In this document: one piece after another, positions 3,394 through 59,089 of the stretch
How positions within the stretch are numbered: the stretch's first letter is position 1
Layout: every line of letters begins with the position of its first letter
Assembly (NCBI GenBank): GCA_017506865.1
Contig: JAFCMP010000542.1
Location: 496,001-560,000 of the forward strand
Direction: 5' to 3'
Source of the DNA: Tribonema minus
Lineage: Eukaryota; Sar; Xanthophyceae; Tribonematales; Tribonemataceae
Length of the DNA: 64,000 nucleotides
Made by a program: the position numbers and the translations under genes
Notes under the pieces: model-generated
The model's database searches: none
Seen by the model: the letters and a program-made list of their open reading frames with translations, nothing else
What the model was told of the DNA's origin: nothing

Positions 3394-6300
3394 GTACATC
3401 GTGCTGGCATTGCTGAAGCAGACCGACGCAAAAGAATCATGCCCGCAATTGTATAGGTCGATGGGCCACAACATGCTACTCTTACACCAATCACGGCAAT
3501 GGTCTGCTGGTTAGTGATGGATGCTCAGACTCATGATGTAAGGCCGCATAACATCAATGCAAGCGCCGTGCCACTCGCAGCTAGCCTGTCTTGTTCATAT
3601 ACTTTGTAGTTGTAGAGTACACCGGAGCTGCTGGTCCCCTCTACATCAGCTGTATCTGGTGGTGCGGTGAATGAAGATACACTGGCAGCATGCAGCAAGA
3701 AGAATTCAGTTTTTTGATGATGTAGCGGTCCAACAGTATCTTCATGATGCATGTCACCAAACGTGGATTCCAAGCGCAAGTCGATATGTTGATGCTGTAG
3801 TTATGCACCATTTTCGCAATGATGAGTGCCGCTGAACTCAGGCGAGCCGCTGAACTCAGGCGAGGCTGCAGCAGCTGTTGCGTCTGCTTTTGTCGTATTG
3901 CCACTGCCATCGCATCATGATCATGCCTACTGTGTGTCAGCGGCGTGCTGTCCTCAGTGTGCCAGACGCCAGCAAGTTGAACAGTATTCCTCAGCATGTT
4001 GTTTCGGCGACGTGATCATTCCTGACGCTCTATGCTCCACCTCACTGCTGGTTCTTGCTCTTGAGCAGCTGAAGTCAACACCAACTTTGACACTACCGCA
4101 CCACCTGGCAGTGTCCTTGGTGGTGCCGTATACCAGGACCCCGGCGGGATATTTAACTGCACTGGCTGTGTGTTTGAGGGAAACACAGGTCAGAGTTTCA
4201 TGATGCCAAAATGGATGCCTCTTAACTGTGTTATGATTGAACCCCTGAGGAGTGCTTTCTAGGTGTAAATACTGTGTTTTCCTGTCCACGGTTAAAGCAA
4301 TGTGTGTTCAATACATCAGGATTAAGTCTGCGAATCCGGTTGCCGAAACCTGTGTTGTGAGCAGCATCATGGGCTTTATCAATGACATCGTTAAATACTG
4401 TACACGTCCTACTACAATAGTGACTGTCGTAAGTTCCCAAAAAACGGTCCCACCATGCAAGTGACCCATGGGCGTTTTTCCTGAAGCAAAATGGGCAGCA
4501 TCGCCACTCCCACTGCAGGCACCCCTTGGGGGGCATTCCGCCATCCCTGCCTCAGATTCTGAACTTGCTGAGAATGATCGCACAGCAGCTGCAGCTCCCA
4601 TAAGTGATGCTCACAGGGTAAGCGGTGTAACTTCAGGATTTTCGTTCCTGAGATCTTGTATGGGAGCTCTGCGAGATTGCAACGCCGGCGGCACCGCCCA
4701 GGTTAGGCGGAACTATCGGAACCCTTGAGTGCTTTTTGTGTGTGGACTGCCAAGCACATCGGCAAGGCTGGCTTCAGGACAGTGCGAGCATGAGGTAAAG
4801 GCTAGAACCCAGACACTACTAACATTTTACAGTAGTCTTGCGATATAATGCCGGCGGATATAATGCTGCTTCGGATATAATGCCGGTCATTTTGGGTGAA
4901 CGCACCAAAAAGTGAAAGTGTTGGAACGCGCTGTAAAGCTGTTTGCACTGGGTTGCGGGTTATTTGGGCAGTTAAGTGCCACTTCGATATAATGCCGCTT
5001 CGGATATAATGCCGTTTTTTTCTGGAGGGAACCGACCCAGCATTATATTGCGAGTGCACTGTACCGCCACAGACCTGCGCTCAGCAGCAGCAGCAGCAGC
5101 AGCAGCGCTGTGCAGCAGGCATGAGCTTAACGCAGCAGCAAAGTTCTCACGCAGTATGTGCTCAGCAGCAGCAGCAGCAGCCAGCACCCACCGGCTCTTG
5201 CTCAGCAGGCTGCTGCTGTTCTGCTTTCATGTCGGTGCTGCTGCTGCTGCTCTGCTGCGCAAAATGCCACCTCACATGACTCAGTGAGCGCTTGTAAGCT
5301 GCTGAGCAGCTGTGCTTGCTCCTGAGCACAGCTCTTGCTGCTGTGGCGGCTGCTACTGGCTTTTGAACATGCACAAGTGCCAACTTGGATCATGTTTGCG
5401 CCAAAGCAGCTACTGAAACCCCTTGCAGAGCACCTTGAGACCTGAGGCGGGGCCGGTGGCTGCTGCCAGGGTCGACAGGTTCCGACGGTTCCGACGTGGT
5501 CCTTGTGCCACATTTTGGCTCCAACGTCGGTGAATAGGTTTCATTACGCACTGCACTCTGATGCTAGATGATGGCTCAGGAGGTGGCGATTCCCGGATGG
5601 CAAAGATACCACGATTTGCTGCAGTTGCAGGAGCCTTGGCGACGCCGCCGCCCTCGTCGGAAGTGTGTGCCGTTGCCGCCACAAGTACAGTGCCTGCTGC
5701 TTCTGCTTCATAGACGACCGGAGCACTATTATATGCAAAGTTCAGATAGGCAGACCCCAGCACAGCAGCACAGCAGTACAACAGTAGCTGCTGCAGCACG
5801 AACACCATAAACACAACCACTGCTAGCAGCACAGCAGCAGCAGCGGCGGCCGTGACAAGAGGATCTGCTGACCATAGGCGTGCTTGAAGGACTGCAGATC
5901 CATCATCCTCTGGTATATTCATTACGTACCGTTCATGTGAGTTATGAGGTACCCACTGCTGCAGGTTGATGTTCAGCACTGCGACCGCACTCACTTTCCA
6001 CGTAGACTTCATATCCAAACAGTTTCGTCCATGTGCCTAGCACTTCTGCTGTTCAAGTTGGTCGCCTTTACACCAGCTGCATCTGATGCGGATTCAGTTT
6101 GGAATTGATGAGAGATGCGTGATGCCAAGACTGTATGCCAAGAGCGAGTCATTGTGTCTATGCTATAGCTGTCCACTAACTCACTGTCGTTGCGTGTTGC
6201 ATTCTCTCATTGAAAGCTTTCTACGGTGGTGCCATCTGCAGCTACGGCAATGCTTCGCTCACGTACTGCAACTTCACGTCAAACTCAGGTGAGACTGCAG

Positions 6301-39663: not shown

Positions 39664-41830
39664 TGTACTTTTATTATATTCCACTTGTGGCTGTGGAAAT
39701 GCCATGTTGTAGGTGTGTCGCCTTGTTCTCACTCTTGGATGTAGCATGCAAAGCTTGCACGCCACACCCCGCCCCCCACATCACCCCCAACAAAGCACCC
39801 GCAAGCGACTGTCCCCCACATACTAGCAGGGATACCAAACAAAGCTACAAGACTCTCCCCCCACAGACAGACCCGTCTTAGGGCCACCCAGCTCCACGCA
39901 GACTCCATCTCAAAGTTTTCATGCAGGCCAAGGTCACCATAATGGGCCCTGAACTGGAGATTGTGGCTATCTACGTGAACCCCGATATCATAAAGATAAG
40001 CAGAGGGAGTCACTGGGCGCCAGGCGCTGACGCTAGAAAGAAAGGCTATATAACTAAGCAAAGCATCGCCTCCTTGATGAGCGGGACGGTGGTTCACCGG
40101 GCCTCCCATATCACCCCCAACAAAGCATCCGCAAGCGACTGTCCCCCACACACTAGCAGGGATACCAAACAAAGCTGCAAGACTCTCCCCCCACAGACAG
40201 ACCCTTCTAAGGGCCACCCAGCTCCACGCAGACTCCATCTCAAAGTTTTCATGCAGGCCAAGGTCACCATGATGGGCCCTGAACTGGAGATTGTGGCTAT
40301 CTACGTGAACCCCGATATCATAGAGATAAGCAGAGGGAGTCACTGGGCGCCAGGCGCTGACGCTAGAGAGAAAGGCTATATAACTAAGTAAAGCATCGCC
40401 TCCTTGATGAGCGAGGTCACGGCTCACCGCAGGCTGCAAGCCTGACAAGATATTGCCATTTACCGCTGCGAGTAACTTGTGGTTGGTGCCGTGGCGTGCA
40501 GCCGACTCCGCTTGCTCTCCAAGCACGCCAAGCCGCTGCCTGTCCCTCCTCCGCACGCCAGCCAGGGCTTCCGAGACACCACCACACGTTTGAAGTTCTC
40601 TCGAAGGGGCTACGCACGCTGGCATCACCTGAGGGCCGCTGGTGCTAGCTCCTGCAAGCCCTGCAGCCCAGCCCACCCACCAAACCAGCCGCATTCGCTG
40701 CCACGTCTTTCGGCGTTAACGAGCTTGGGACGCTGTTTGTACTTGTACTTTTATTATATTCCACTTGTGGCTGTGGAAATGCCATGTTGTAGGTGTGTCG
40801 CCTTGTTCTCACTCTTGGATGTAGCATGCAAAGCTTGCACGCCACACCCCGCCCCCCACATCACCCCCAACAAAGCACCCGCAAGCGACTGTCCCCCACA
40901 TACTAGCAGGGATACCAAACAAAGCTACAAGACTCTCCCCCCACAGACAGACCCGTCTTAGGGCCACCCAGCTCCACGCAGATTCCATCTCAAAGTTTTC
41001 ATGCAGGCCAAGGTCACCATAATGGGCCCTGAACTGGAGATTGTGGCTATCTACGTGAACCCCGATATCATAAAGATAAGCAGAGGGAGTCACTGGGCGC
41101 CAGGCGCTGACGCTAGAAAGAAAGGCTATATAACTAAGCAAAGCATCGCCTCCTTGATGAGCGGGACGGTGGTTCACCGGGCCTCCCATATCACCCCCAA
41201 CAAAGCATCCGCAAGCGACTGTCCCCCACACACTAGCAGGGATACCAAAGAAAGCTGCAAGACTCTCCCCCCACAGACAGACCCTTCTAAGGGCCACCCA
41301 GCTCCACGCAGACTCCATCTCAAAGTTTTCATGCAGGCCAAGGTCACCATGATGGGCCCTGAACTGGAGATTGTGGCGATCTACGTGAACCCCGATATCA
41401 TAGAGATAAGCAGAGGGAGTCACTGGGCGCCAGGCGCTGACGCTAGAGAAAAAGGCTATATAACTAAGTAAAGCATCGCCTCCTTGATGAGCGAGGTCAC
41501 GGCTCACCGCAGGCTGCAAGCCTGACAAGATATTGCCATTTACCGCTGCGAGTAACTTGTGGTTGGTGCCGTGGCGTGCAGCCGACTCCGCTTGCTCTCC
41601 AAGCACGCCAAGCCGCTGCCTGTCCCTCCTCCGCACGCCAGCCAGGGCTTCCGAGACACCACCACATGTTTGAAGTTCTCTCGAAGGGGCTACGCACGCT
41701 GGCATCACCTGAGGGCCGCTGGTGCTAGCTCCTGCAAGCCCTGCAGCCCAGCCCACCCACCAAACCAGCCGCATTCGCTGCCACGCCTTTCGGCGTTAAC
41801 GAGCTTGGGACGCTGTTTGTACTTGTACTT
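39664..41830. repeat. Two-copy 1,080-bp tandem repeat with nested 330-bp repeats
   Basis: 39664-40743 and 40744-41823 are nearly identical (only scattered substitutions). Inside each unit a 330-bp segment occurs twice (starts about 39781 and 40111; 40861 and 41191). Both periods are multiples of three, so long frames stay open on both strands: minus 40694-39729 and 41774-40809 (321 codons each), plus 39921-40391 and 41001-41471 (156 codons). The plus frame repeats PELEIVAIYVNPDII, which faintly recalls the beta-strand core of APE-type endonucleases in LINEs. I cannot decide whether any frame is a gene. The array is flanked by TTGGGAGTGTAC (39656) and TTGGGGGAGTGTAC (41831). Confidence 0.8.
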
Positions 41831-41843
41831 GTTGGGGGAGTGT

Positions 41844-44800
41844 ACTTTTTATTAATTCTCGCTCAGGGCGCGAAAAAGCCCAGATGATTGGCATCTAGCT
41901 GTAAGGAATCTACATGTCGTATGACAGTCTGAAAGTGTCGCAACGACAACCACTCAAACGCCGCCGCCGCCAAATGGCATCTCGGGGTCCTCCCCTACGT
42001 CCTCCTCCATGTGCCCCCCCCCCCTGGATTCTGCCATGTGTGTCATGACACGGCCAGAGTACGCCATGTGGAGCGCTGCCGACAGTGCCGAGCGTAAGCG
42101 CGCCAGGGCGATGCCCTTGAGAGCTTTAGGGCGCGCTCCTCCGGGCACTGACATCCTGCTGGCATACTCCGTCGCCACAGCCTCCAGCAGCTTCCGCCCC
42201 TGCTCCCCGATGCTGCCAAATGACCCTATTGCCAATGTGGCAAGTTTGTAGCAATTCTGATCATAATGACCAGAATAGTGGGTAGTCTTGGCGGCCTCTT
42301 GGTCGCGGCAGCATCGCTCGGGGTCTGCTGCAGTCTTCGCCGCCCGCGACGCCACCTGTGCCTCGAAGCAGGTAACGTCCACCATGAGCGGTAGGTGGCG
42401 TGTCGGGTCGTCGTAGCCGGTCACCGGGAAGGCGTCGGCAGGCAGCACGATGTCCATCCTGCGACTCCCCGGCGGCCCGGCGGACCCCAGAAACGGCGTG
42501 TAGTCCTCGTCCACCAGTCCCGTTTTGAGGTATTGCCGCAGGAGGCGCTGCGTGGCCCTCTTGACGCTATTGTGGACAATGGTGTCGTGCGCCTTGACGC
42601 GTGGCGCTTGACACAGCCGTGCATGCAGGGTGCCGCCCGGCGACTTCCCGCACAGCTTGCAGCCTGCCGTCTGCTCCTCTACTCCGATGGCGCGTTTGAC
42701 GGCCAGCTGCCAGGATAGGCCATCGAACGAAGCCGTTGTGGAGTACATGGGCTCGTTGAGGAATGCCATGCCGATCGAGTGCATGTGGCGCTGCGACCGG
42801 AATCGAGCAAGTGCTTGCGTGCGTTGCGTGCCCTGCGGCAGCTGTTGCAGGTCCGCCTCCACCTTATCTGCAAGCTCGGTAGCGACGGCATCTGCAAGCG
42901 CACTCTGATTGGGGCGCTTCAGGCTACACTGCAACTGCAGAGCACTGGCGTCAAGTACGCAAGCAGCATCCGCACCAGTGCCACCACCTGCTGTCGGCCG
43001 CAGCGGCGGCTGCTGCGTAGGTGGTTGCTGCTGCAGTGGCGTTAGCGCTGGTGGCAGTATATGTTCCAGCTTGTCACCTGTTGCTGCACGTAGAGATGTG
43101 GCAGCTGTGGCGATCGTCCGCATGAGGGGCAGGCGCGCCACCTCTGCCGCTGCTGCGCCTTGTAGCATTGCTGGTGTGGAACGCGCAGCGCCTGCATTGA
43201 CGGCTGCCGCTGCTGCGTGCGCTGGTGCTGCAGCTGTGCCGCCTGCCGTTGCTGCTGCTGCCAGTGGTGTTGCTGCTGCCGCAGGTGTTGGTGCAGCACC
43301 TGCCGCATTGGCCGCTGCCACCGCCATTGCCGCTGTCGCAGCCGGCACGGTTGCGGCGCCGCCTGCCGACGCTGCTCCTGTTGCAGGTGCTGCAGCAGCC
43401 CTTAGGCTAGTAGGGCCTGTAGCAGCTGTATTGCCTATGCCCGCAGCCGCTGCTGTTGATGCTGCAGTTAGTGATGCCGCCGAGGCCACTTGAGGTGCAA
43501 CATGTGCTGCCGCTGCTGCAGCAGCCTCTGATGCTGGAGCAGCTGCTGCTGCCGCCGCTGCTGCTGCCGCCGCTGCTGCTGCCGCCGGAGTAGTTGCGCC
43601 GTGCGCCGCCGCTGCTGCTGCTGCCGCTGGTGCCGCCTGTGCTGCCGCCGCGGCCCCTGATCCAGCGGCAGCTGCGTCGTATGTTGCCGGAATGGCTGCG
43701 CCATAAGCGCGGCCAGCCGCTGATGCAGTTGCCGCTGCCGGAGCGGTCGCGCCTCCACTGGCAACCGCCGCTGCCGCTGTAACAGTTGCCGCTGCTGATG
43801 CTGCTGGTGCTGGTGCTGCTGCCGCTGCTGCCGGTGCCGCTTGTGTTGCCGCATCCTCAGCAGCGTTGTCTGCAGCCGCTTGAGGAGCCGCCTGCTGCAG
43901 CACCCCCGCCCATCCAGAGAGTGCTGGTTGCAGCGCTTGCAACGTGCCCGCCACATACGCAGCATCAGCGATGTCGCAGGCGCTGGTAATGCCAAGGCCG
44001 CCATGCCGTGTTGGGAGTCGCGCTTGCTGTAAGGCTGGGCCGTGCGCTGCCAGATGGAAGTGGGCCCCACTTTGCTCAAACTGGCGCCAGGTCTGGCCTG
44101 GTGGCTGCAGGCCCATTGAGTGCTCGAGCACCCACTGCGTGACCCGATCCCACTCCTTGGCGGCTGGCGCTGTCTGCGTAGTGGGAATGGTGCGCAGGCA
44201 GTACGTCATGCGAGGCACCACGCAGTAGCGCAGTAACCTGAACATAGCCCTCGGAGATGTCAGGCGCGCGCATCGCTCTGCAAATCGAGCCCCTGCCCCG
44301 CCTGCACCCGCTTCCCTGCGCAGCCATGCGTCCACAAAGCTGCTGTGGCCCACCGGCACCCCCAGCAGCACAGCTCCACGGTTCTGATTTTCATCCGTAT
44401 CCCCCACTAGCTGAACGCCCAGCTGCTGCAGCAGTTGCCGCTCGTGGTCTGTCACCACATGCCCCCTGCCAGGCAGCGCGCGTGACTTGGTGAGGTTTAG
44501 CTCCAGCCCCACCTCCGCAAAGTGTTGTTTGAGCTGCGCCACCGCCTGTATGTCATCCTGAGTCAGCGTGCAAGCGCCTGTTCGGACGTTGGCATCGTCC
44601 ATGTAGGCGCCCATCCGCCTCCGCGCGCGCTGCGCAGCCGCCGCCTCATTGAACCGTTTCAAGCACTGAGCAATGGCGCCGCAGAAGAGCATCGGTGCCG
44701 CGGGGTCCCCCTGCTTAAACCCGCGCTGAGACATGATGATGCGCGTGGAGCCGTCAACGTGCTGGAACAGCAGGCGTGGCCGAGTGCGAACGTATGTGCC

Positions 44801-47407
44801 GATGAAGTAGTCGAGGAAGTCCGGCAGCTGTGCTGCTACCCATTCCGCTGCCGCCAGGACGAACACCATGTTGAAGGCATTCTTGAGGTCCAGCATGAAC
44901 TGCCAGTGACCGAGCTCATACGCGAGTTTGCCGGCCATGGCCGCTTTCTCCGCTCCTGCTGAGACGGCTACCCCATACTGCCCGTCTGGCTCAAGGAGCT
45001 CCGCCAGGAAGTCTTTGCGGTCTGCCACGTACACCGAAGTGCATAGTCGCTGCAGCACCTCGCCGCAAACGATGGGCCGCTGCTTAGCTGTACCATCTTC
45101 CTGTTGTTCTGCAAGTGGCGTCAGGCGCCCCGCGCCATGCAACTGCCAGAAGGCATCCGGCAGCCGCGCAGCCTCCCGCATAACGGTCTGAAGCCACCGT
45201 GTGAGGACAGCAGCAAACTCATGCCGTCCCCAGCTTGTGCGTAGCGCATCCTGCAGGTGGCTGTAGCGCAGCCCCGATGGGCCTGCTCCACTGTAAGGGC
45301 TTGCTCGCTGGATGAGCTTGGCAACCGTCTCTGGCTCAATTCCCTCCCCCTGTAACAGGCTGAGTTCTGCTGGCATGTCGGCTGCTTTCGCCACAAGCTG
45401 ATCAACCATGCCGGATAGCTCATGGAGTTGTTCCCCTGGCGCAGCGGAGGGGTGTTTGGACTGCATGGCGGCAAAGCAGTCATCATCAGGTATCGCCACC
45501 GTTTTGGGCTGAAGGAAACGCGCTGCCTGCTGTAGCCCCCCCCGTGTGCCCATGCACTGTAGGACGTAGGCGTTGATCGCTGCCTCCGTTTGCTGGCGCG
45601 CGCGCCAGCGCCGGTGCGCACGCGCGTGTGCGAGGAGCGCTGGCACCAACCGGTCAAGCTCACCGCGTGCCAACATTCTGATTCTGTCGGAGCGAGTGAT
45701 GCCAGGTGCGCCATCGGTGGAGGTGATGAGTGATGGCATGAGGTGGTGTAGAATCGTGGATCTTTGCAGTCGCTGCACCCGCCCTGCAGAATCTGGCTCC
45801 CGCGCCGCATTGACGAACATCGTCATTGTGTGTGCCAACAGATGTGTTGCTGCGTTCTCCAGTGCAGCTCCCACATAGCGACGATTGCGTGGTCTAGCAA
45901 GGCTTCTAGTTGTCGCGAACTGCAGCTTGCACAGCTCATCGAGGCTGATGCTGTCAAGCACTGCTGCGACTGCGGGGGTTGAGATGGTCCACGTGAAAAG
46001 CCCACCTGCCCCACCTGCTGCGCCTGCAGGGCCTGGCGCTGCCGCTGCTGTCGCCGCACCTGCCGCTCTGGGACCCCCTCCGCCGCCGCCGCGGCCGCCA
46101 CGACCACAGCCTCGTCCGCCGCTGTCGCTGCTGCGACCGCTGCCACGACCACCGCGGCCGTTTTGAGTTCGCGCGCCACTGCCGCTGTTGCTAGCACCGC
46201 CGCTGCGGCTGCTGGCATCACTGCTGCGGCCGTTGCCAGCGCCGCTGTCCTTAGTACCGGCTGCACTGCCGCCGCCGGCACCGCTGCTGCTGCCGCCTCC
46301 GGTTCTGCTGCCGCTAGTCGCTCTGCTACTGCTGATGTCTGCATCATTGCTGCCGCTGCGAACGCGTCCTCCATTGCCACGTCCGCGCCCTCCACTGCGA
46401 CCCCGACCCCCTCGTGTAGCACTGCTGCCCCCGCGTTCCGGCCTCTTTGAGCTGCCGGAGGAGCTGCTGCCACCAGCCTGAGCAGCAGGTGCCTGCTGCG
46501 CGTGCGCTGGTCCCTTTGCGTAGGGGTTGCCGATGGGTGTGCACGCCGGTTGCTGCTGTGGCAGCGACGTGGTAGCTGTTGCCGTCGATGCATCAGGTGC
46601 TAGCGGTGCTGCTGATGCTGTTGTTGACAATGTTGCCGCCACTGCAGCGGGTGAAGTGATAGGCCTGCATTTGCGGCAGTGCTTGCCCGCGCTGGCATCG
46701 CTGCTGTCCACTCTGAATGTCTTGTTGGCATGAAACAGGTTTTTGCACAAGGCACACTCGGTGTAGATGGTTTGCAAGTGCGACGTGCTGAGGTCGGAGC
46801 GCTCCAGGAACGTTGTTGCTGTCCCACTGTGGTGTTTGCGCTGGTGCTTCGCCGCGATGTGGGCGTTTAACCTCTGCTGTAACGAGAGCAGCGACATGCC
46901 CTTCTTCACCACGAGGTCGCATAAGTTGCACTTGTACTCCGGGTCCGCACTGCCTCCACCTCCAGCTTCGTCGTCTAGCATCAGACGTTGCTGTTCCAGA
47001 CTGTTATGACCTGTTCTAGAGCGCTTGACTGCACTTTGCCCGCCCGTGTGCTCCCCTTCGCCTGTTTGATCGGAAATTGACCAACCGTCATTCTGTACCC
47101 TCTTGCGTTTGTGCGCTGCGCGTCCGTCTCCAGTTGCTCTGCTGCTGCCACTCGTGCCATCGTCCTGTTGACAAGCGCCATTGCCATCTGCAGCACTGGT
47201 GCTAATATCCTGCGCTTGTGCGCACGCTAGATCGGATTCCTTGCATTTCTGCGCTGATTCAGAGTTGGCAATACGGGCCTCCCGCCGCCGCCATGATATT
47301 CTTTTCATGAACTCTGCTACGCCATGGTGCTACATGCTACAGCTACATACCTATCCGCATCTCGTGGAGGCCTACTACGGTACTTTTATGGGGAGGTACT
47401 CATACGG
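41844..47407 (-). mobile_element. R2-like non-LTR retrotransposon, apparently full length
   Basis: The element carries one long intact ORF on the minus strand (41954-47308), with about 110 bp after the stop and about 100 bp before the start. The possible flanking duplication GGAGTGTAC occurs at 41835-41843 and 47408-47416, but the same word also occurs at 39659, so the ends are provisional. No poly(A) tail was found. It lies directly against the tandem array. Confidence 0.65.
41954..47308 (-). CDS. R2-like retrotransposon protein: zinc fingers, reverse transcriptase, Ala-rich linker, CCHC, restriction-like endonuclease
   Basis: 1,784 codons from ATG 47308, unbroken. It should bind target DNA, nick it and prime reverse transcription there. 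Order: C126-X2-C129...H149-X4-H154 zinc finger; a second Cys cluster C184-X2-C187...C210-X2-C213; a Gly/Ser/Arg-rich RGG-like region (about 275-435); RT (about 650-1010) with FMLDLKNAFN (Asp807), FKQGDPAAP and AYMDDAN (Asp904-905); an extreme Ala-rich linker (about 1180-1480); knuckle C1550-X2-C1553-X8-H1562-X3-C1566; and a PD-(D/E)xK-type nuclease with RRMDIVLP (Asp1619) and LMVDVTC (Asp1644). N-terminal fingers plus CCHC-REL identify the R2/NeSL/CRE grouping. It is distinct in sequence from copies A and B. A decayed 3' piece of this family is at 55500-55818. The intact ORF suggests recent activity. Confidence 0.88.
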   Translation of the reverse strand: MKRISWRRREARIANSESAQKCKESDLACAQAQDISTSAADGNGACQQDDGTSGSSRATGDGRAAHKRKRVQNDGWSISDQTGEGEHTGGQSAVKRSRTGHNSLEQQRLMLDDEAGGGGSADPEYKCNLCDLVVKKGMSLLSLQQRLNAHIAAKHQRKHHSGTATTFLERSDLSTSHLQTIYTECALCKNLFHANKTFRVDSSDASAGKHCRKCRPITSPAAVAATLSTTASAAPLAPDASTATATTSLPQQQPACTPIGNPYAKGPAHAQQAPAAQAGGSSSSGSSKRPERGGSSATRGGRGRSGGRGRGNGGRVRSGSNDADISSSRATSGSRTGGGSSSGAGGGSAAGTKDSGAGNGRSSDASSRSGGASNSGSGARTQNGRGGRGSGRSSDSGGRGCGRGGRGGGGGGPRAAGAATAAAAPGPAGAAGGAGGLFTWTISTPAVAAVLDSISLDELCKLQFATTRSLARPRNRRYVGAALENAATHLLAHTMTMFVNAAREPDSAGRVQRLQRSTILHHLMPSLITSTDGAPGITRSDRIRMLARGELDRLVPALLAHARAHRRWRARQQTEAAINAYVLQCMGTRGGLQQAARFLQPKTVAIPDDDCFAAMQSKHPSAAPGEQLHELSGMVDQLVAKAADMPAELSLLQGEGIEPETVAKLIQRASPYSGAGPSGLRYSHLQDALRTSWGRHEFAAVLTRWLQTVMREAARLPDAFWQLHGAGRLTPLAEQQEDGTAKQRPIVCGEVLQRLCTSVYVADRKDFLAELLEPDGQYGVAVSAGAEKAAMAGKLAYELGHWQFMLDLKNAFNMVFVLAAAEWVAAQLPDFLDYFIGTYVRTRPRLLFQHVDGSTRIIMSQRGFKQGDPAAPMLFCGAIAQCLKRFNEAAAAQRARRRMGAYMDDANVRTGACTLTQDDIQAVAQLKQHFAEVGLELNLTKSRALPGRGHVVTDHERQLLQQLGVQLVGDTDENQNRGAVLLGVPVGHSSFVDAWLRREAGAGGAGARFAERCARLTSPRAMFRLLRYCVVPRMTYCLRTIPTTQTAPAAKEWDRVTQWVLEHSMGLQPPGQTWRQFEQSGAHFHLAAHGPALQQARLPTRHGGLGITSACDIADAAYVAGTLQALQPALSGWAGVLQQAAPQAAADNAAEDAATQAAPAAAAAAPAPAASAAATVTAAAAVASGGATAPAAATASAAGRAYGAAIPATYDAAAAGSGAAAAAQAAPAAAAAAAAHGATTPAAAAAAAAAAAAAAAAPASEAAAAAAAHVAPQVASAASLTAASTAAAAGIGNTAATGPTSLRAAAAPATGAASAGGAATVPAATAAMAVAAANAAGAAPTPAAAATPLAAAATAGGTAAAPAHAAAAAVNAGAARSTPAMLQGAAAAEVARLPLMRTIATAATSLRAATGDKLEHILPPALTPLQQQPPTQQPPLRPTAGGGTGADAACVLDASALQLQCSLKRPNQSALADAVATELADKVEADLQQLPQGTQRTQALARFRSQRHMHSIGMAFLNEPMYSTTASFDGLSWQLAVKRAIGVEEQTAGCKLCGKSPGGTLHARLCQAPRVKAHDTIVHNSVKRATQRLLRQYLKTGLVDEDYTPFLGSAGPPGSRRMDIVLPADAFPVTGYDDPTRHLPLMVDVTCFEAQVASRAAKTAADPERCCRDQEAAKTTHYSGHYDQNCYKLATLAIGSFGSIGEQGRKLLEAVATEYASRMSVPGGARPKALKGIALARLRSALSAALHMAYSGRVMTHMAESRGGGHMEEDVGEDPEMPFGGGGV

Positions 47408-47915: not shown

Positions 47916-50900
47916 ATGGCCTCAGCAAGCAGTCATCTGAGCATAGCTGTGCACGGCATCAGATTTGAGCACACAGATGCAGTGTCACCAGCCGCTGTGG
48001 CGGGCAGCAGTATCACGCTCAAGTGTGCTGTCGAGGGAATTGCTGCTTCAGAGCTGTTCAGCCAGCTTGCTCCTGCTGAAATCACTGTTACTTTGGAGGA
48101 GGACGCTGGCGAGGCGGGGCTTCTGCAGGGCGCGGTGCATCATTCGGTGCACACCACTCCCTTTGAGCCCAGTGAGGAAACATTGGGCAGGATTGCTGCA
48201 GCTACGTACACCATACAGGCCTGGCTGGCGCAGGAGCTTCTGGGTGCAGCCCATGTTCAATTATCGGACGTCCTGGCAGGGGAGACGGAGGCGCACATAG
48301 AGGTGCCGCTCCTGCTGCATGGAAGCAACGACCCCACAGGATTCCTGAAGGTGGTGCTGTCGTGCGATGAGGCCACTGCGGACTACTGCATAGGATCCTC
48401 CAGGTTGACTCTCAGGGAGCTGCGCATTGCTGGACTGCCGGCGGCGTGGCGGCTAGCGCATGGCGAGTTGCAAGGTCTGGAAGGAGGTACGTACCTATGT
48501 ACCTGTTGACAGTGTCGCTCACCCCGTGCCATGGCATGAGTAAGTGGCCAGCGTGATGGTGGAGCAGAGGAAAATGATAGCTGGCTCTGCGAAGATTCGC
48601 CGTGGATTATGTGAGTGAGCATGGCCCACCGATCGTAGGCCTCTAGGTGACAAGGTGTGCTCATCGTCAACATTGAATGCCTTCCACTGATAACTGTGGT
48701 CGCCGCTGCTGCGGCAGTTGGCCACGAGTCAAACAGTGCCTCCATATCCACAGTAGTCATTGCTGTGTGTGCTGTCACTGCGGCTCAGTGCGCGCCATAG
48801 CATAGGTAATCAGCCAAAGTGATGGTGGAGCAGAGGAAAATGCAAGCTTGCTTTGCGGAGATTTGCCATAGTTTGCTTTGCGAAGATTTGCCATGGGTCA
48901 TATGAGTGAGCATAGCCTACACATTGACGGCAGCAGCTCGCACATGCAGCTGACCCTGCTGCCGTGTCATGTCATGTCATTCTACGCATGGAGCCACCAA
49001 GAAGTTTGTGCATGCAGACTAGTTGTGTATGCGAAGATACCGCCATATCTGTGCTGTTGACGCTGAATACTGCATGCAGTGCAGCAATTAATAAGGGATG
49101 CAAAGACAGGACTCCTTCTTGTTCAACCAGTCGCTTTGTCTATGATGTCAACACAACAGGACATGTCACTCACTACTTAGTTGGGCCACGTTCGCAAGAT
49201 CAGCAGTCCCACAGTGCAAAATCCACTGCACTTTGCTTCAACATTTTCCCAGCAGCTCGAAAATGCTCAATGCACTGCGCTTTGCTTCGGCATTGCAAGC
49301 ACCCCTTCAACAAATGTGCACCTGCTCAGCAGCAAGCACTTGCATCTGGTGTGGGCGTGCTTGAAGTTGAAGTACAGCAGCCCACAAAGCAAGTTTGAAA
49401 CGCTAAAGGCTACTGCCATGTGTACATTTGCGCTCTACTCCGCGAGCACTTGCTGGCTTTGCTGCGAAAACGGCCAGCGAACGCAGGTGATGCAGTATGT
49501 TACTTCAAGGCGAAATAGTGTCCTTCAAGGCAGCACATGCAGCAGTGCGTGTGGCCGTCAGAGGTCGCCTGCACAGCTGAAGCGAGACAATTCCCTGAAT
49601 GCCACAACAGGTCAGGCTGGGGTGACTGTCTCGGCTACAAATTGAGGATAGCCCGATGACAACAGCACATTAGTTTGAGCTTCTCATCCATCCTACCCTT
49701 GCGCCTCTGTGAACCCGTGCAGATGCGTGGCAAGCCAAAGTACAGGACCTGCTGGCCCAGCCCGCCAACCAAACATTCACCTACACCCTGGACTGGACAG
49801 CAGCAGGTCCCGCTTTCGACAACAACCACAACACCACCGCCACCAGCGCTGCCGACCCTCAACAACCCGATGCTGCTAGCACTGGCAGCAGCGCTCAGCC
49901 ACAACTTCAACTTCAACAGCCACCCGCCCTGCCGGGGGCGCTGGCGCGCTTCCACACCGCCTCCGGCGCGCTGCAGTGCCGCGGCGGCAGCAGCAGCAGC
50001 AGCAGCGGCAGCAGCGGCAGCGGCAGCGGCGACTGGACGATCGCCTTCGACGCGCCGCCGGGCGCCCTGTTCCTGCACCGCAGCAGCGTGCACGCGCTGC
50101 GCGCCGCCGCGCTCGCCGGCGCGCGCCTCTGCGCCACCGTCGTGCGTGCCCGAGCGGTGCCGCTCGTCGACCCCAAGGCCAAGAAGCCGCCGCCCCCCGC
50201 CAAGGGGAAGGGGGCGGAGCCGGCCCCCCCGCCTGAGGCGCCGTGGACGCTGCGTACATACCTACCCCTGGCGCCGCTGGCGGAGCGGCCCGACCTGCTG
50301 AATGCGGAGCTGCGGGGGGCGCTGGAGTACGGCGGAGGGGATTCCCAGTCAGATTCAGAGTCGGACGCGGCGCGCGCAGCACTGCTCAGCGAGAGCGGCA
50401 CGGCGCTGCGCCTCGGGGCGCGTCTGTCGCGCGCGCTGGTGACGCTGCCGCCGGTTATGGCAGTTACGCCCGGCGAAACGGTGCTGCGCGTGGCCCCCCC
50501 GCGCGAGCTGCGGCGCCCCAAACCTCCCGTTGATGTTGAACAGGACTGGCAGGATGAGATTGACGCGTTCGTACGCGCGGTGCTGGTGGAGTATACCAAG
50601 CTGTTCGGGGCGGCAGCGGCGGCAGGGGGGGCGGGCGGTGGTGGCGGCGGTGCGGAGGTGTCGGCGGAGGACAGGCGGCGGCAGCTGTTCTACGCGCTAA
50701 GCGCTGGCGGCATGTATCACAGGTATGTAGGTATCACTGTGATGATTCCAACTGATGAATTGTTGCAGGGATAATCATGTGGTAGAACGACAAGTACATG
50801 GGGTAAATGGAAGGATGCCAAATGGACGTGGGATCGATGAAGGAGTGCTGGTGTGAAAGCCCCCCCCTTGCTTTAAGCAAGTATTGTGACTTTCTTGTAC

Positions 50901-53900
50901 TCTGAAGGCCTCTGAAGCATCATGCCGCTGAATCTATGTACTTGACACACTTGGATGGTCCACAGCTCATGTTGCTGCCAATCCTGTCTGTTCGCCTTAC
51001 TTTTTCCTTAGGGTTAGCTGTACCTGATTGCTGACACACTTGTGAGACAAGTACCTGCAGTTTGGCACCAGAATACATGGGCACCCCAAAGAAGAATTCA
51101 TCATAATCTTGACATCAGACGGCTGCAAGAATGTAGTTGCATGTGTGGTACTTGAAGATTTCTCAAACACGCGTACTTAAGTATGTATACTTCTATATAT
51201 ATGCTTTCGAATGGGCACAATCATATACAGCAGTTTGAAAACCTGGCTGGCATACGCGCTTGTCGGTGTGGCGGCAACCCTAACCCTAACCCTAACCCTA
51301 ATCCTAACCCTAACCCTAACCCTACAGCCGCTGGCGCACTCCCTATTGTCATAGCGCTGCAATCTGACAGCGCCGCAACCATGAGGGCGCTCAAGCTGTG
51401 CACGTTGCGGCTGTCTCAATCTGCCCTGAGCCACTGTTACCCACCCCCAACACATTGAATTCACCGCACGCGCGCCGCCCCCCTTTAACTGCGCGCAGGT
51501 TCAAGGAGGCGCTCAAGCCGCGCATCCAGCGCGTCGTGCGCAAGCGCCTGAGCACTGCCGCAGCCCCCCTGAGCACCCCCACACCCCCCCCGGACCAGCT
51601 GGCCTGCGCCCTCTACTCCGACCTGGTGCAGCGCGCCAATGCGGTGCTGCTGCTGCGGCTGCGCGACATCGAGGCGGGGCTGCTGCCGCAGTACCTGAGC
51701 ACTGACGCGACGGCGGCGGTGGCGCAGCGCGCGCGTGCGCTGGGGCTGCTGGCCGAGGACGCCGAGGCCAGTGAGCAGTGGGAGAGGGCAGTGCTCAGGC
51801 ATCAGGACCGGTACGTATGTATATGTCCGTATGTTTCACAGTACTTGAGGCCAGTGCTCAGTGGGAGAGGGCAGTGCTCAGGCATCAGGACCGGTACGTA
51901 TGTATGCATGTGCTCGAAAGTGTTAAGGGTCAGTGCTCAGTGGGTGAGGGCAGTGCTCAGGCAGCAGGGTCGGTACATACGTATATACTTGTTTGGTAAC
52001 AGTGCTCAGTGGGTGAGGGCAGTGCTCCGGCACCATGATCGATGTGTATGTAGAAGCATAGAGTTTGGAGTACTGAAGGCCTGTGCTCGGTGGGAGAAGG
52101 CAGTGCTCAAGCATCAGGATACTGGTACGTATGTGTACGCTTGAGTGTGTTTGAGGGCAGTGCTCTGTGGGAGAGGGCAGTGCTCAGTCACCAGGACCGT
52201 TATGTATGCATAGAGTTTGGAGTACTGGAGGCCTGTGGTCGGTGGGAGAATGTGCTTGAGGGCAGTTCTTAGTGGGAGAGGGCAGTGCTCAAGCATGAGG
52301 ATGTGAATGTATACATAAATGCGCTGCAGACTGCTGAGTGGTGCTTAGGGTAACCTCAAACGGGACCCGCAAGCGTGACTCTCGATCTCAAGTCTGGCCT
52401 CAAAATGCCTCTTGTGCCACAGTTTGGCTATGCTATGTATGCACAAAAGGCTGCAGAATTTGAGCTATCCTTTAGAAAAGACTGAGTGTCCTGCTGGTAC
52501 ATGACAGGCTTCAGTAACTCTAAGGCATGTTTAGCTGGCAGCATCAGCTGCTGGTGCTGCTGACTACACCAGCGACTGCAGCGGTTACAGAAGGATATGC
52601 GGCTCTGTTGAGCATCGCCGAATGAGTTCATATGTTGTTACCAAGGTGTGACATGTGCACTTCAGCAGTGGTTAGCGCGAAATGTGTCGGCTCACGTCTA
52701 CTTTTTTTTTTAACACTCCTCACTGTACTCCTCACTGTCCCTATGCCCTCTCTCAGTTTTGTGCGACACATGTGTATATTCTCTCATGTTGCACAATTCA
52801 AGGCAGACGCTCATGGTTCCCCCCCCCCCCCCGTACCCGCCCCCAACGTCCAGAATCGACGCCATCGAAACCGCCATCGCCGCCCTGCCCCCCACCCCCA
52901 CCACCCCCTCCACCGACAACACCCCCGCCAGTGCCGACCTAGACGAAGCACGCGCCCTCCTCACGCAAGCGTGGCTCGACATGGCAGCGTGCTGCTCACG
53001 CCGCGGCGATCTCGACGCCGCAGCGCAAGCACTCACCGAGACGCTGCGCTGCGCGCCCGGTGGCGCTGCGCACCCGCTCAACCTTAACTACGTGCAGTTC
53101 TACGCCGCAGTCGCGCTGGAAATGGGCCGCGTTGACTCCGCGGAAGCAGTGCTGGAGGATGCGCTTGCGACGTGCCTGCCGCCGCCGTCAGAGTGGGGCG
53201 ACGGCTACGACACCGACGCCTATGCGGAGCGCTGCCCTGCGGACATGTGCGCGCTGCTCAGCATCGTGCGCGACAGGCAGCACCAGCCGTGCGCGGCGCG
53301 CGCCGCGCTGCGCCGCGCCGTCGCCGCGGCGCTCCGCCAGAGCGGCGGCGGCAGCGCGCAGCAGCAGCAGCAGCAGCAGCAGGAGCGGCCGCGGCGCACC
53401 GCCGTCGCGCTCCTGCTGGGCCTGTGCGAGTACCTGCTGCAGCGGGGGCTGCGGCGCGGCGCGGCGGCAGCGCTGGCGGCGGCGCGCGCTGCGGAGGGCA
53501 CCGCCGCCGCCAAGGCCGCGGAGAGGGGCCTGCCGCCCGCCGCCGGCACGGCGCAGCGCGCGACGTTGCTGCGCCTCGACAGTGCGCTGCGCGCTGCCGC
53601 CGCCGCCAACGATGTCGCCGCCGCCGCCGCCGCAGTGGAGTCCGCGCAGCTGGCGGCGGAGCTGGAGCCGCGCAGCGCGGCGGCGTGGGGCGCGCTGGCG
53701 GCGGCGCTGCGCGCGGCGCGCTACCCCGTGGAGGAGGCGGAGGCGCTGGCGGCGGCGCTGGCCTGCTGCAGCAGCGCTCAGGAGAGGGGGCCCCTCGCGC
53801 AGCACGCGCGGCTTGGCGCTCTGAACCTCGCGCTGGGACGCCCTGCGGAGAGCAAGGCGGCGTGGCTCGGGGGCGCGCGCGAGTGGCACGTGCCCAGCGT

Positions 53901-54912
53901 CTGGCTGGGTGCGGGGGTGGCGGCGATGGAGCTGGAGCAGTGGGAGGAGGCAGAGGCGGCGCTGCAGCAGGCCAATCGGCTCGATAACGCGGACCCCGCG
54001 GTGTGGGGGACGCTGGCGCTGCTGCTGCTGGCGCAGGGGGACGCGCGCGCTGCAGAGGCGGAGCGCGCGCTGGACCAGGTGAGAAGCCCAGGGCTGAGCC
54101 TCGCCCTGCTTGAGTTTCGTAAGGAGCAAGGGCTATACCTCGTCCTTAGTGTAACCCTGAGTAGCCCTGAGCGGCGAAGGCCGGGGCGGAGCGCGCATTG
54201 GAGCAAATCAATATAGCCATGTTTCGCCTCTGCTCCAGCTCTGCCGCTAGCCCTGAGCGGCGCACAGGCGGAGGCACGTTCGTTAGACAGGACGCCTAAC
54301 CCTGATCCTATTAATAACACCAAACCCTACCCGTAATCCTACTCAAGTAGATGTTTGTTCTGCATGTATGTCGTGCAGTGGATGCATGATGCGATGCTGC
54401 CTGAGTGCGTCGTGTCTGAATTTGCAGTGTATCTGAGTACTGTTCAGGCTCCTTTTAAAGCGCTGCGATTCGCAGGCATCTTGCCAATCACAACGCTCAC
54501 ACCCATACACCCTCCTCTTAATCTCACTCTCCTCACTACTCCTCATCTCCACCACCCACAGGCGCTGCGGCTGGGCCTCGCCGACGCCGCGCTGCTGCGC
54601 AAGCTCGGCAACGCCTTTGTCTCCGTAGACCGCCTCGCGCGCGCAGAGGACATGCTGCGTCGCGCACTGTCCCGCGAGACCGCCGCCGGCAGCAGCGGCG
54701 CCGGCGCGCATGTGCGGCGCCGCCTGGCCGACGTCTTGTCTGCGCAGAACTGCGTCGCGGCGGCGGTGGGCGAGTACAGGGAGGTGTTGCTGAGCACTGA
54801 CGCGCCAGCGGCGGAGCGGCAGGAGGCGCTGAGCCGCTGCGCGCCGCTGCTCAAGGCGCTCGGGCGCGAGGCGGAGCTGAGGGAGTGGCGCGCGGCGGCG
54901 GCGGCAGTGTGA
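47916..54912 (+). CDS. CFAP70: Cilia- and flagella-associated protein 70 (TPR protein of the axoneme)
   Basis: Five exons: 47916-48486, 49723-50722, 51499-51810, 52803-54078 and 54562-54912, joined in phases 1, 2, 2, 0; 3,510 bp, 1,169 residues, close to the ~1,120 of animal CFAP70. The N-terminal ~190 residues are a C2-like beta domain. The middle holds a basic, Pro-rich stretch (KAKKPPPPAKGKG) and the conserved block ending YHRFKEALKPRIQRVVRKRL. The C-terminal half is TPR: AEDAEASEQWERAVLRHQDR, then helices to WLGAGVAAMELEQWEEAEAA, NADPAVWGTLALLLLAQGDA and LRKLGNAFVSVDRLARAEDM. The VWLG(A/L)G...EAE.AL..AN.L(D/N)N block is the strongest match to the family. CFAP70 belongs to ciliary axonemes, where it is linked to outer dynein arm regulation. 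A Q8 run (about 53362-53383) is CAG-encoded. Exon 1's ATG is the first in frame with the C2-like domain. Introns 3 and 4 contain copies of adjacent exon ends. Confidence 0.9.
48537..48925 (+). repeat. Duplicated segment in CFAP70 intron 1
   Basis: About 48537-48630 and 48797-48925 share AGTGATGGTGGAGCAGAGGA-type sequence, then GCGAAGATT(C/T)GCC and ATGAGTGAGCAT or a close variant. The second copy has an extra internal repeat of TTTGC(G/T)AAGATTTGCCAT. No coding signal. Confidence 0.6.
51276..51325 (+). repeat. Interstitial telomere-like repeat (CCCTAA)n in CFAP70 intron 2
   Basis: About eight tandem CCCTAA units, one with a TAATCC variant. Human-type TTAGGG repeats are the telomere of some Chlamydomonadales; most green plants have TTTAGGG. 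Frames through it (repeated NPNP) are by-products. Confidence 0.9.
51849..52316 (+). repeat. Seven tandem echoes of the CFAP70 exon 3 end and splice donor
   Basis: The last ~45 bp of exon 3 and its donor (AGTGGGAGAGGGCAGTGCTC ... CAGGACCG|GTACGTATGTAT) recur about every 75 bp, at roughly 51849, 51927, 51999, 52079, 52154, 52229 and 52259, with increasing damage. At least two echoes keep a CGGTACGT- or TGGTACGT-type donor (about 51893 and 52131). The frame from exon 3 stays open to 52144, so use of these donors could lengthen the protein. Confidence 0.85.
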
Positions 54913-56340: not shown

Positions 56341-59089
56341 ATGCAGGGTAGCGACGCCCTGGACGCTGCTTTGAATGACCTGCTCGGCCTCGCCAAGGCG
56401 CCACGGCGAGTCAGCCTGAAGATCACGCCTAGCAGCCCAGATGGCAGTCAGGCTGGCCGCCTCCTCAATCCTGACTCTGGTGGGTCCAGGCGCAGTCTGT
56501 TGCACTCGCCGCTAGGCTCGCCGCTGGGCTCGCCGCTGGGCTCGCCCTTGGGATCGCCGCTGGGTTCGCCTTTAGGCTCTCCACATGGAGCTGCGGGCGG
56601 CAGGCGCCCTTTTTTGAGCTCTGCGCGAACGTCATTGGCTCCCAGCCACACCGACAGCGACGCCCATCAAAGCGCGGGGCCGAATGGTTCCGCCAACTCA
56701 GAGCGTTCGCAGCTGAGGTCGCGGCCTAGCTTGAGGGTCAACACTGCACTGGAGTATGGCACTTCTACCACAGCAAGTCCTGCTGCACCGCTGAGTTCGC
56801 ATGGCGGCGTCGCAGGCACCGCTGGCCATGTCCCAGGCAGCCCGTCCTCGCCACTGGGCGCCAGGGGCATGAGCTCCAAGCAGATCAGCTTCAAATTTGA
56901 AGATGGCATGGGCAGCAGCGCTCGGCAGCTGAGTGCCCTGGATGGCTTTGGGGGCGAGGGCAGCTCCGCCGCGGCAGCCGCAGCGCAGCCCCGCTCGTCC
57001 GCTGGCCCCCGCAACCACAACAACTCTGCAGCAGCAGCAGCAGCAGCAGCACCAGGCAGCCCAAATGCCGCCGCTCACCAATACATAACCCTGGAAGCAG
57101 GCGGGTCGGCGCCCGGTGGCGCTCCCCATGCTGCGGCGCCAGCTTCGCCGATTGCTGGTAGGCGCAGCCAGTACATTGCTAATGCAGGGCCCGGCGGCCC
57201 TGCTCTTGCCAGCCCTGCAGCTTCACCTTCAGGAGCGTCACCTTCAGGAACTTCACCTGCAGGAGCGTCGCCTGGCTCGCCAATCGGCTGGCGGCGTAGC
57301 CAGTACATCAAGAACAGCGGGCCGGGCAGTCCAATAAATGCCGGCGCTGCTGCAGCGGGTGCTGGCGTTAGGGCCGCAAACGAGCAGCACGCAGGAGGTC
57401 ACCAGAATTCAGTGCCTGCAAGCCCCGGAGCGGGTGCTACGCCTTCATCGCCCATCGGCGGGCGTCGGAGCCAGTACGTCAAGAATAGCGGGCCGGGCAG
57501 TCCGATCAACGCAGGCGGTACGGCTACTGGCGTGAATGGCGCGGCAGCGGCAGTACATGAGGCGCATACAGGGAGCCAGACCCCATCAGCAGCAGCGGCA
57601 GTCCCCGCTAGTAATACTAGTAGTACGCCCGCCTCGCCGATTGGCGGACGCCGCAGCCAGTACATCAAGAGCACCGGGCCTGGCAATAGTCCACTTCTCA
57701 GTACTGCTAGCACCGCGACGTCAGCAACTGGCGAAACCGCCTCTACGCACAAACAGCCGCCATCGGTCCAGAATTCATCAGCCGTTCCTGCTAGCGCTGG
57801 CGCTAATGCTGCGCCAGCCTCGCCAACAGCAGGGCAACGCAGCCAGCACGCGGCCGCTGCGAGCGCTGCCATGCTGAGCACTGGTGCAACACCCACAAGG
57901 CAGCAGCAGCTGAGCACTGAGGACGGCAGAGGCATCGTTATCGGCAGCACGGGCAAAAGCGGCGCCGCGGTGCCACCGGAGACGGGGGGGAGCGGCGGCG
58001 GCAACGGCGGCGGCGGCGCTGGTGGTGACAGTGCGGCGGCTGAGCATCTGCGCTCAGTTGAGCAGCTGCGTGAGTTGTGGAATGCGCGCCAGGCGGACGT
58101 GCGCACGGCTCAGCAGCGGCGCGTGCAGCAGCTGGACCCGCTGTTGGCGGCGGAGAAGGAGCAGTTTGACAGGTGCGTGGTGACCTTGTGCATGTCACGC
58201 TGCTAATACACACCTGATAAGGGTATGTACAATAGTACATGTGGAGGCATGAATCGCTGGTGTCATGTGCAGTACGGGCCATTGCAGGCATTCTGAGTAA
58301 TGACGCAGACGTCTCCATGATACTTTGAAGCAAGTGCTTCTATGCATGCAAGCGTGTTGGCATCAGATTTGAAGCGCGGAGTATTGCAAGCAAAGTGCAT
58401 TTGAGCAGCCATATTGGCACCTTTCGTTTCACAAGTGGCAGATTACCAGCAAGGCTCCACACCAGCATGCGTTCGAGTTCGAGTATTCTTAGGGTTAGGG
58501 GTTTAGGGTTAGGGTTAGGGTTAACCCTATGCGTGCGCTCATAAGCTTTACCAGGCTTAGGTTTAGTAAGGTCTGTGTATACCTAACCCTACTCTGGCTT
58601 GCACTCACACGTAGCCTTGCCACAGTTCAGTGTCATCCTGCTGGGTACTTTCGATGTCACTTGAAGTGGCAATTCAGGCACTTAATAGGTTTGAAGTTGC
58701 GCAACCTCTGCCACTGCTCTTTGGAAGCCTGCTGATTGCGTTATAGTAACAATGTAGACTGTCATTGCTGATGCTCATGTGATGTGCAAGGCGACGGCGA
58801 TTGATGTGACAGTGCTCCACACTGCCTGAGGCGGCATAGCAGGGCGCCTTGAAGTTTGTGTAGTGCTTACAATCATTATCAGCATCTTAAGCCCGTGAAT
58901 CTTCGTGGGTGCTTACAAACAGTAGTGCTACTATCAATGTCATAGCCCGTGGTTGCGCATTGTTTTGTATGCCTCACAACGGAGGTCGGCGCGGCAGTGC
59001 GCACGTTCTGTAGCTGTAACTGCGCGTTGTGCTGTTGTGCTTGCCGCCTCCAGTCCGCCCGCACTGATGCCACCTTGCCTCATTGAACA

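Follow-up and report, generated by a model that had tools for sequence, protein, structure and literature searches.

A tandem array of the exon 3 end and splice donor of CFAP70 within intron 3 of the gene in Tribonema minus

The CFAP70 gene and the array in its third intron

The window analysed here is the whole stretch of 64,000 nucleotides of Tribonema minus, and it contains a gene on the plus strand (47916-54912) which was modelled with five exons and GT-AG introns and which encodes 1152 residues without an internal stop (Table 1). The window corresponds to C539:496001-560000, and the sequence has the look of an algal nuclear genome, judging from its spliced and GC-rich genes, its interstitial AACCCT repeats and the presence of a flagellar gene. 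A phmmer search with the first 732 of the 1152 residues matched 9ijj_k (CFAP70, PDB entry 9ijj) with an E value of 8.2e-8 over residues 412-629, and this match supports the identity of the gene as CFAP70, the name it had been given in the preliminary description. The comparison of exon 4 with PDB again recovered 9ijj_k (E 1e-10), ranked under an engineered TPR protein (2e-15), and the TPR_14 model scored 24.1 bits against its cut-off of 23.5 in the same exon, so the protein carries the C-terminal TPR repeats expected of CFAP70. The other TPR models in exon 4 all fell under their cut-offs, and no Pfam family was found in exons 1 and 2. The alignment with 9ijj runs to the last residues of exon 3 (AEASEQWERAVLRHQDRI vs AEVNEKFEIAAMYYEERL). 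The exon end is thus ordinary CFAP70 sequence, and judging from this homology the edge of exon 3 is likely the source of the repeated sequence described below.

Table 1. Positions of the CFAP70 exons, of intron 3 and of the repeat copies in the window
Feature	Position	Strand	Remarks	Basis
CFAP70 exon 1	47916..48486	+	begins at ATG	open frame, GT-AG sites
CFAP70 exon 2	49723..50722	+		homology to 9ijj_k
CFAP70 exon 3	51499..51810	+	last ~47 bases likely the array source	9ijj_k alignment; junction 51810/51811
CFAP70 intron 3	51811..52853	+	1043 bp, GTACGT...CCAG, contains the array	gene model
Copy 1 (exonic)	51758..51840	+	donor 51810/51811, GTACGTAT	unit alignment
Copy 2	51841..51919	+	donor 51893/51894, same 17 bases as copy 1 donor; +83 nt, frameshift	
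Copy 3	51920..51988	+	donor 51972/51973, GTACAT; +162 nt, in frame	
Copy 4	51989..52069	+	donor lost (ATGTGT)	
Copy 5	52070..52146	+	donor 52124/52125, GTACGT; +314 nt, frameshift	
Copy 6	52147..52221	+	donor lost (TTATGT)	
Truncated copy	52222..52251	+		
Last copy	52252..52322	+	in-frame TAG in exon-derived part; exon-equivalent donor lost	
CFAP70 exon 4	52854..54078	+	TPR repeats	TPR_14
CFAP70 exon 5	54562..54912	+	includes stop codon	gene model

The end of exon 3 and its GTACGT donor had been noticed to recur downstream, and our analysis confirmed an array at 51764-52322. Within the intron, a unit that comprises about 47 bases of the exon 3 end, the donor and about 30 bases of the intron is present in six full copies and one truncated copy. 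TRF reported the region 51764-52212 with a period of 83, 5.8 copies and a score of 289, and in 100 dinucleotide shuffles of 51499-52853 no TRF array with a period of at least 20 was obtained at the reporting score of 30. The seven full copies, including the exonic one, are spaced by 83, 79, 69, 81, 77 and 105 bp, with a mean of about 82 bp instead of the period of about 75 bp that had been proposed, and the 30-bp truncated copy falls inside the last of these spacings. As an imperfect tandem array with units of tens of bases, the sequence in intron 3 has the structure of a minisatellite. A 321-bp piece of the array was searched against the 158-Mb genome of the alga itself at E values up to 10, and no match was found beyond the array, among the best candidates, which alone were scored in the own-genome searches, with very common words skipped. 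A dispersed element or an introner element was rejected as the origin of the array on the basis of this search.

The six full intronic copies are, in order, 96, 84, 78, 78, 84 and 78% identical to the exon over the exon-derived core of 45 bp. Nearly perfect early copies followed by decaying later ones had been described, and the first intronic copy is indeed nearly perfect, but the other five all lie between 78 and 84%, and no significant trend of identity with distance was found across the six (Spearman -0.62, p 0.19, n=6). One codon reads GAG in the exon, GCT in five of the full intronic copies and TCT in the last one, a pattern that would fit either descent of all copies from a single first duplicate or a substitution in the exon itself after the first duplication. 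When the intronic copies were compared with each other, pairwise identity was 64-89% in the exon-derived part vs 38-69% in the intron-derived part, where the alignments contained many gaps. The better preservation of the exon-derived part is not predicted by uniform neutral decay; it may be due to high mutability of the TATG-like linker, to errors in the alignment or to conversion by the exon.

Copied donors, reading frame and coding constraint

Intact donors are present in copies 2, 3 and 5, and the donors of copies 4 and 6 and of the last copy have been lost. The donor of copy 2 is identical to the real donor in nine exon and eight intron bases and lies 83 nt from it. Two alternative donors had been suggested earlier, of which the one at 51893 was correctly placed, but the one given as 52131 is in fact the donor of copy 5. 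Since two donors share the same 17 bases at a distance of 83 nt, some use of donor 2 is expected, with the resulting frameshift and without added protein function. We infer that the first donor (51810) is the one in use. The frameshift from donor 2 would lead to a stop after 684 residues, and that from donor 5 to a stop after 761 residues. Donor 3 is the only in-frame option, and the 54 extra residues would consist of one helix-like copy and much linker. The suggestion that alternative donors insert TPR-like turns into the protein was therefore not borne out, because donors 2 and 5 shift the frame, donor 3 adds much linker, the changes in the copies are mainly non-synonymous and the last copy contains a TAG. 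Given these frameshifts, the lost donors and the stop in the last copy, the copies were rejected as extra TPR-coding repeats. Tandem exon duplication of the kind that gives rise to alternative exons was rejected as well, because donors are lost in three of the six copies, one copy contains a stop and 29 of the 39 summed changes are non-synonymous.

The open frame continues for 110 codons beyond the real donor. It had been described as staying open past several copies, and copies 1, 3, 4 and 5 do lie inside it, but copy 2 lies outside. A frame of this length was rarely reached in 2000 dinucleotide shuffles (0.0015 for its own frame and 0.004 for any frame), whereas 17% of 20,000 random assemblies of the array units gave a frame as long (29% in any frame). 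For array units, which contain few stop codons when read in this register, the open frame is thus unremarkable, and with a frequency of 0.17 under random unit assembly the long open frame was not taken as a signal. Summed over the six full intronic copies, with shared changes counted repeatedly, the exon-derived core carries 10 synonymous and 29 non-synonymous changes; the synonymous share of 26% stands against 18% expected for random single changes, which is a descriptive comparison. No sign was seen that the intronic copies are kept as protein code.

Exon edges in a second gene and in the sampled sequence

The same anatomy was found in an unnamed second gene on contig C539, the contig of the window (347.7-355 kb, loci L013 and L026), in which exon edges have been copied on the acceptor side and on the donor side. 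No significant match to Pfam or PDB was found for the pieces of this gene that were tried. In L013, an exon start at 9396 together with its acceptor has four further copies upstream, of which those at 9256 and 9119 are near-identical and those at 8979 and 8739 are decayed; the end and donor of the same exon are repeated downstream, and the end of the preceding exon has a decayed copy. Three exon edges of the second gene have copies with a score of at least 40. The edge copies occupy L013 8739-9620 and 7950-8170, which correspond to C539:347.9-349.6 kb. Three more edges, two donors and one acceptor, were matched in L026 at 1500-1720, 2520-2650 and 4100-4345, with scores of 39, 39 and 67; these matches were found by eye, have no background and were excluded from the survey counts. 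They are weaker or of low complexity, and the last one, the acceptor, is rich in C runs.

Over 57 shared bases, every difference between the near-identical copies and the exon of the second gene is synonymous (6 of 6 for copy 9256 and 1 of 1 for copy 9119), as are all 5 differences between the two copies, and 26% of random single changes over 66 bases would be expected to be synonymous. Translation in the exon frame that starts at either of the copied acceptors runs into a stop before the exon (9337 and 9212), so these acceptor copies are unlikely to be coding; from their pattern of differences they may be a record of earlier states of the exon. The exon-derived and intron-derived parts of the copies are similarly kept in the second gene, unlike in CFAP70. 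Among its intron windows away from the edge copies, 2 of 60 scored at least 40 vs the three strong edges, so edges look favoured within this gene in what is a post hoc comparison of hand-chosen, unmasked stretches.

The wider survey covered 294,885 bp, made up of the 64-kb window together with 23 stretches taken from contig C539 (of which one measured 885 bp) and one stretch from contig C200. Exons were predicted by a simple codon-usage model trained on CFAP70 and the open frames of the sample, and many of the predicted edges are uncertain. Copies with a score of at least 40 in the adjoining noncoding DNA were found for 4 of the 110 predicted edges (40 donor and 70 acceptor edges); one of the four belongs to CFAP70 and the others to the second gene. 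Equally strong copies were found for none of the 94 exon-interior segments in their flanks, for none of the 110 edges when taken as reverse complement, for 2 of 1150 mismatched pairs and for 36 of 1031 intron-interior windows. Noncoding windows overall reached this score in 113 of 3909 cases, which does not differ significantly from the edges (Fisher p 0.56); at a score of at least 30 the counts were 8 of 110 edges vs 164 of 3909 noncoding windows (p 0.14), and vs 151 of 3833 after removal of the two echo loci (p 0.08), all of these being comparisons of non-independent windows that come almost entirely from one contig. The counts indicate that copying affects edges at roughly the frequency seen in other noncoding DNA, and a modest excess of edge copies over noncoding duplications is possible.

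Self-comparison of the sample gave 110 nearby direct-repeat pairs, of which 82 were noncoding and 14 coding-coding; the remaining 14 were edge pairs, all of them confined to CFAP70 and the second gene. A first, coarser survey of other edges placed 8 of 79 edges above the background 99th percentile, a level exceeded by 1 of the 79 edges in reversed form and by 2 of the 66 segments from exon interiors. In CFAP70 itself, a similarity of intron 4 to the end of exon 4 had a score of 27, which equals the background 99th percentile, and it is not claimed as an edge copy. The first 244,885 bp contain 41 tandem arrays with a period of at least 20. Three of them touch a predicted coding edge, one of which (L011) is a CAG-rich stretch in which no exon copies were seen by eye, and 11 of the 41 lie wholly within predicted coding sequence, which means that short arrays occur inside exons too.

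Origin of the array and relation to known systems

The array is probably explained by general local tandem duplication that is tolerated at exon edges. The founding event would have been the tandem duplication of a segment of about 80 bp, which comprised the end of exon 3, the 5' splice site and some 30 bp at the beginning of intron 3, and further duplication or unequal exchange would then have enlarged the array to its present size in the intron, with six full copies and a truncated one. As long as the exon-side donor is intact, each duplicate could be removed as intron and would be nearly neutral, and free mutation of the copies would have destroyed three of the six copied donors. Duplication within an exon would often be harmful and duplication within an intron harmless, and a duplication across the boundary would be nearly harmless if the exon-side site is used, because the original splice site survives; such boundary duplicates would also remain recognisable because the exonic copy is conserved. 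The array would then be one case of a background of short local tandem duplication that affects noncoding DNA and exon edges at similar overall rates. The order of the duplication events and their neutrality are our inference. Our results support the earlier proposal that the intron was lengthened by tandem duplication across the exon-intron boundary. The fit of general local duplication is imperfect in two respects, which are the better-kept exon-derived part of the CFAP70 copies and the clustering of edge copies in two genes.

A rival explanation is an edge-directed process, in which the edges would be copied outward by template switching or by repair that begins anew at the junctions between exons and introns, so that introns grow from their ends. 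The donor-side and acceptor-side copies at several exons of the second gene, the low count of strong windows away from the edges of that gene (2 of 60 at a score of at least 40), the p value of 0.08 for edges at a score of at least 30 once two loci were removed and the well-kept exon-derived part in CFAP70 are all consistent with such a process. We nevertheless consider it unlikely, as strong edge copies are overall no commoner than copies elsewhere (4 of 110 vs 113 of 3909) and are confined to two genes, and an apparent bias to edges is expected anyway, given that the copy in the exon, which serves as the reference, is spared from decay.

The use of the copies in isoforms, in which a longer exon 3 produced by alternative donors would supply the protein with additional ASEQWERAVLRHQD helix repeats, appears improbable. 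The identity of the donor 2 context to that of donor 1 over 17 bases, the in-frame and open extension from donor 3 and the rarity of 110 open codons under dinucleotide shuffling (0.0015) speak for it, but donors 2 and 5 shift the frame into stops, only half of the six copied donors survive, the changes are mostly non-synonymous, the last copy contains a stop and the unit bootstrap makes the open frame ordinary (0.17). Even less probable is that the copied donors would act as decoys or as extra U1-binding sites that tune splicing or shield the intron from early polyadenylation; three copied donors retain GTACGT or GTACAT, which speaks for this idea, yet the three others have been destroyed. An assembly artefact is the least probable of these explanations. 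Tandem repeats are error-prone in assembly, but all full intronic copies except one have diverged from the exon at 16-22% of the core positions and the spacings are irregular, and such divergence and irregularity are not the product of misassembling identical reads.

Intronic minisatellites consist of imperfect tandem units of tens of bases. The CFAP70 array resembles them in its imperfect units of this size, its unequal spacing and its one truncated unit, and it differs from them in that a splice site and coding sequence were part of the unit from which it arose. Splicing substrates with competing identical 5' splice sites have been engineered, and CFAP70 is similar to them in having two tandem donors with identical context, although it is a natural genomic array with more than two competitors. 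Among the literature matches listed, which cover the open-access literature in part, the closest precedent is the potato RdRp gene, in which a tandem duplication that crossed an exon-intron boundary produced a new intron, and for which a figure legend describes an 83-bp duplication inside an intron that left the gene structure unaltered (PMC4974935). Both cases involve a tandem duplication across an exon-intron boundary with its splice site, and the copies diverged later. The donor side was duplicated in CFAP70, whereas the acceptor side was duplicated in potato; moreover, CFAP70 has seven further copies, and its existing intron was lengthened with no new intron or exon indicated. A review that presents the AGGT model of intron creation treats tandem duplication as a genuine way in which introns are gained (PMC3443670). 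In that model, a tandem duplication supplies the duplicated splice-site sequence, as in CFAP70, but an exonic AGGT is duplicated to give a new intron, whereas in CFAP70 an existing junction was duplicated into an existing intron. Among the matches listed, within this partial open-access coverage, no case of iterated exon-edge copies that lengthen an existing intron was found.

It is doubtful that introns of this alga have repeatedly grown through the copying of exon edges and that the intronic copies preserve, layer by layer, a fossil record of how the exon once was. If this were true, each copy would be a snapshot of an exon evolving under selection, in line with the synonymous-only differences in the second gene, and in genes of this kind donors and acceptors that are nearly identical would compete with each other in natural arrays. 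If such copies were common in the genome, they could be used to date changes in exons and to learn how the exon-side site is chosen by the spliceosome. The array would in any case illustrate that growth of an intron at its edge need not harm the gene, and it may serve as a natural test of splice-site choice, in which two donors with identical surroundings lie 83 bases apart, together with others, in one intron.

Several other repeats and a neighbouring element were observed in the window. A direct duplication of about 98 bp lies within intron 1 of CFAP70 (48504-48867), outside the exon model, and a telomere-like interstitial short array (AACCCT/TTAGGG) is found at 51276-51324 in intron 2; a second telomere-like short array occurs at 58489-58523, just past the coding part of the frame that follows on the plus strand. 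Upstream of CFAP70, an open frame of 1791 residues on the minus strand (41954-47329) encodes a reverse transcriptase domain (RVT_1, 2.1e-10) and is probably a retroelement, and the adjoining region (39664-41830) contains large direct and tandem repeats with a period of 330 bp.
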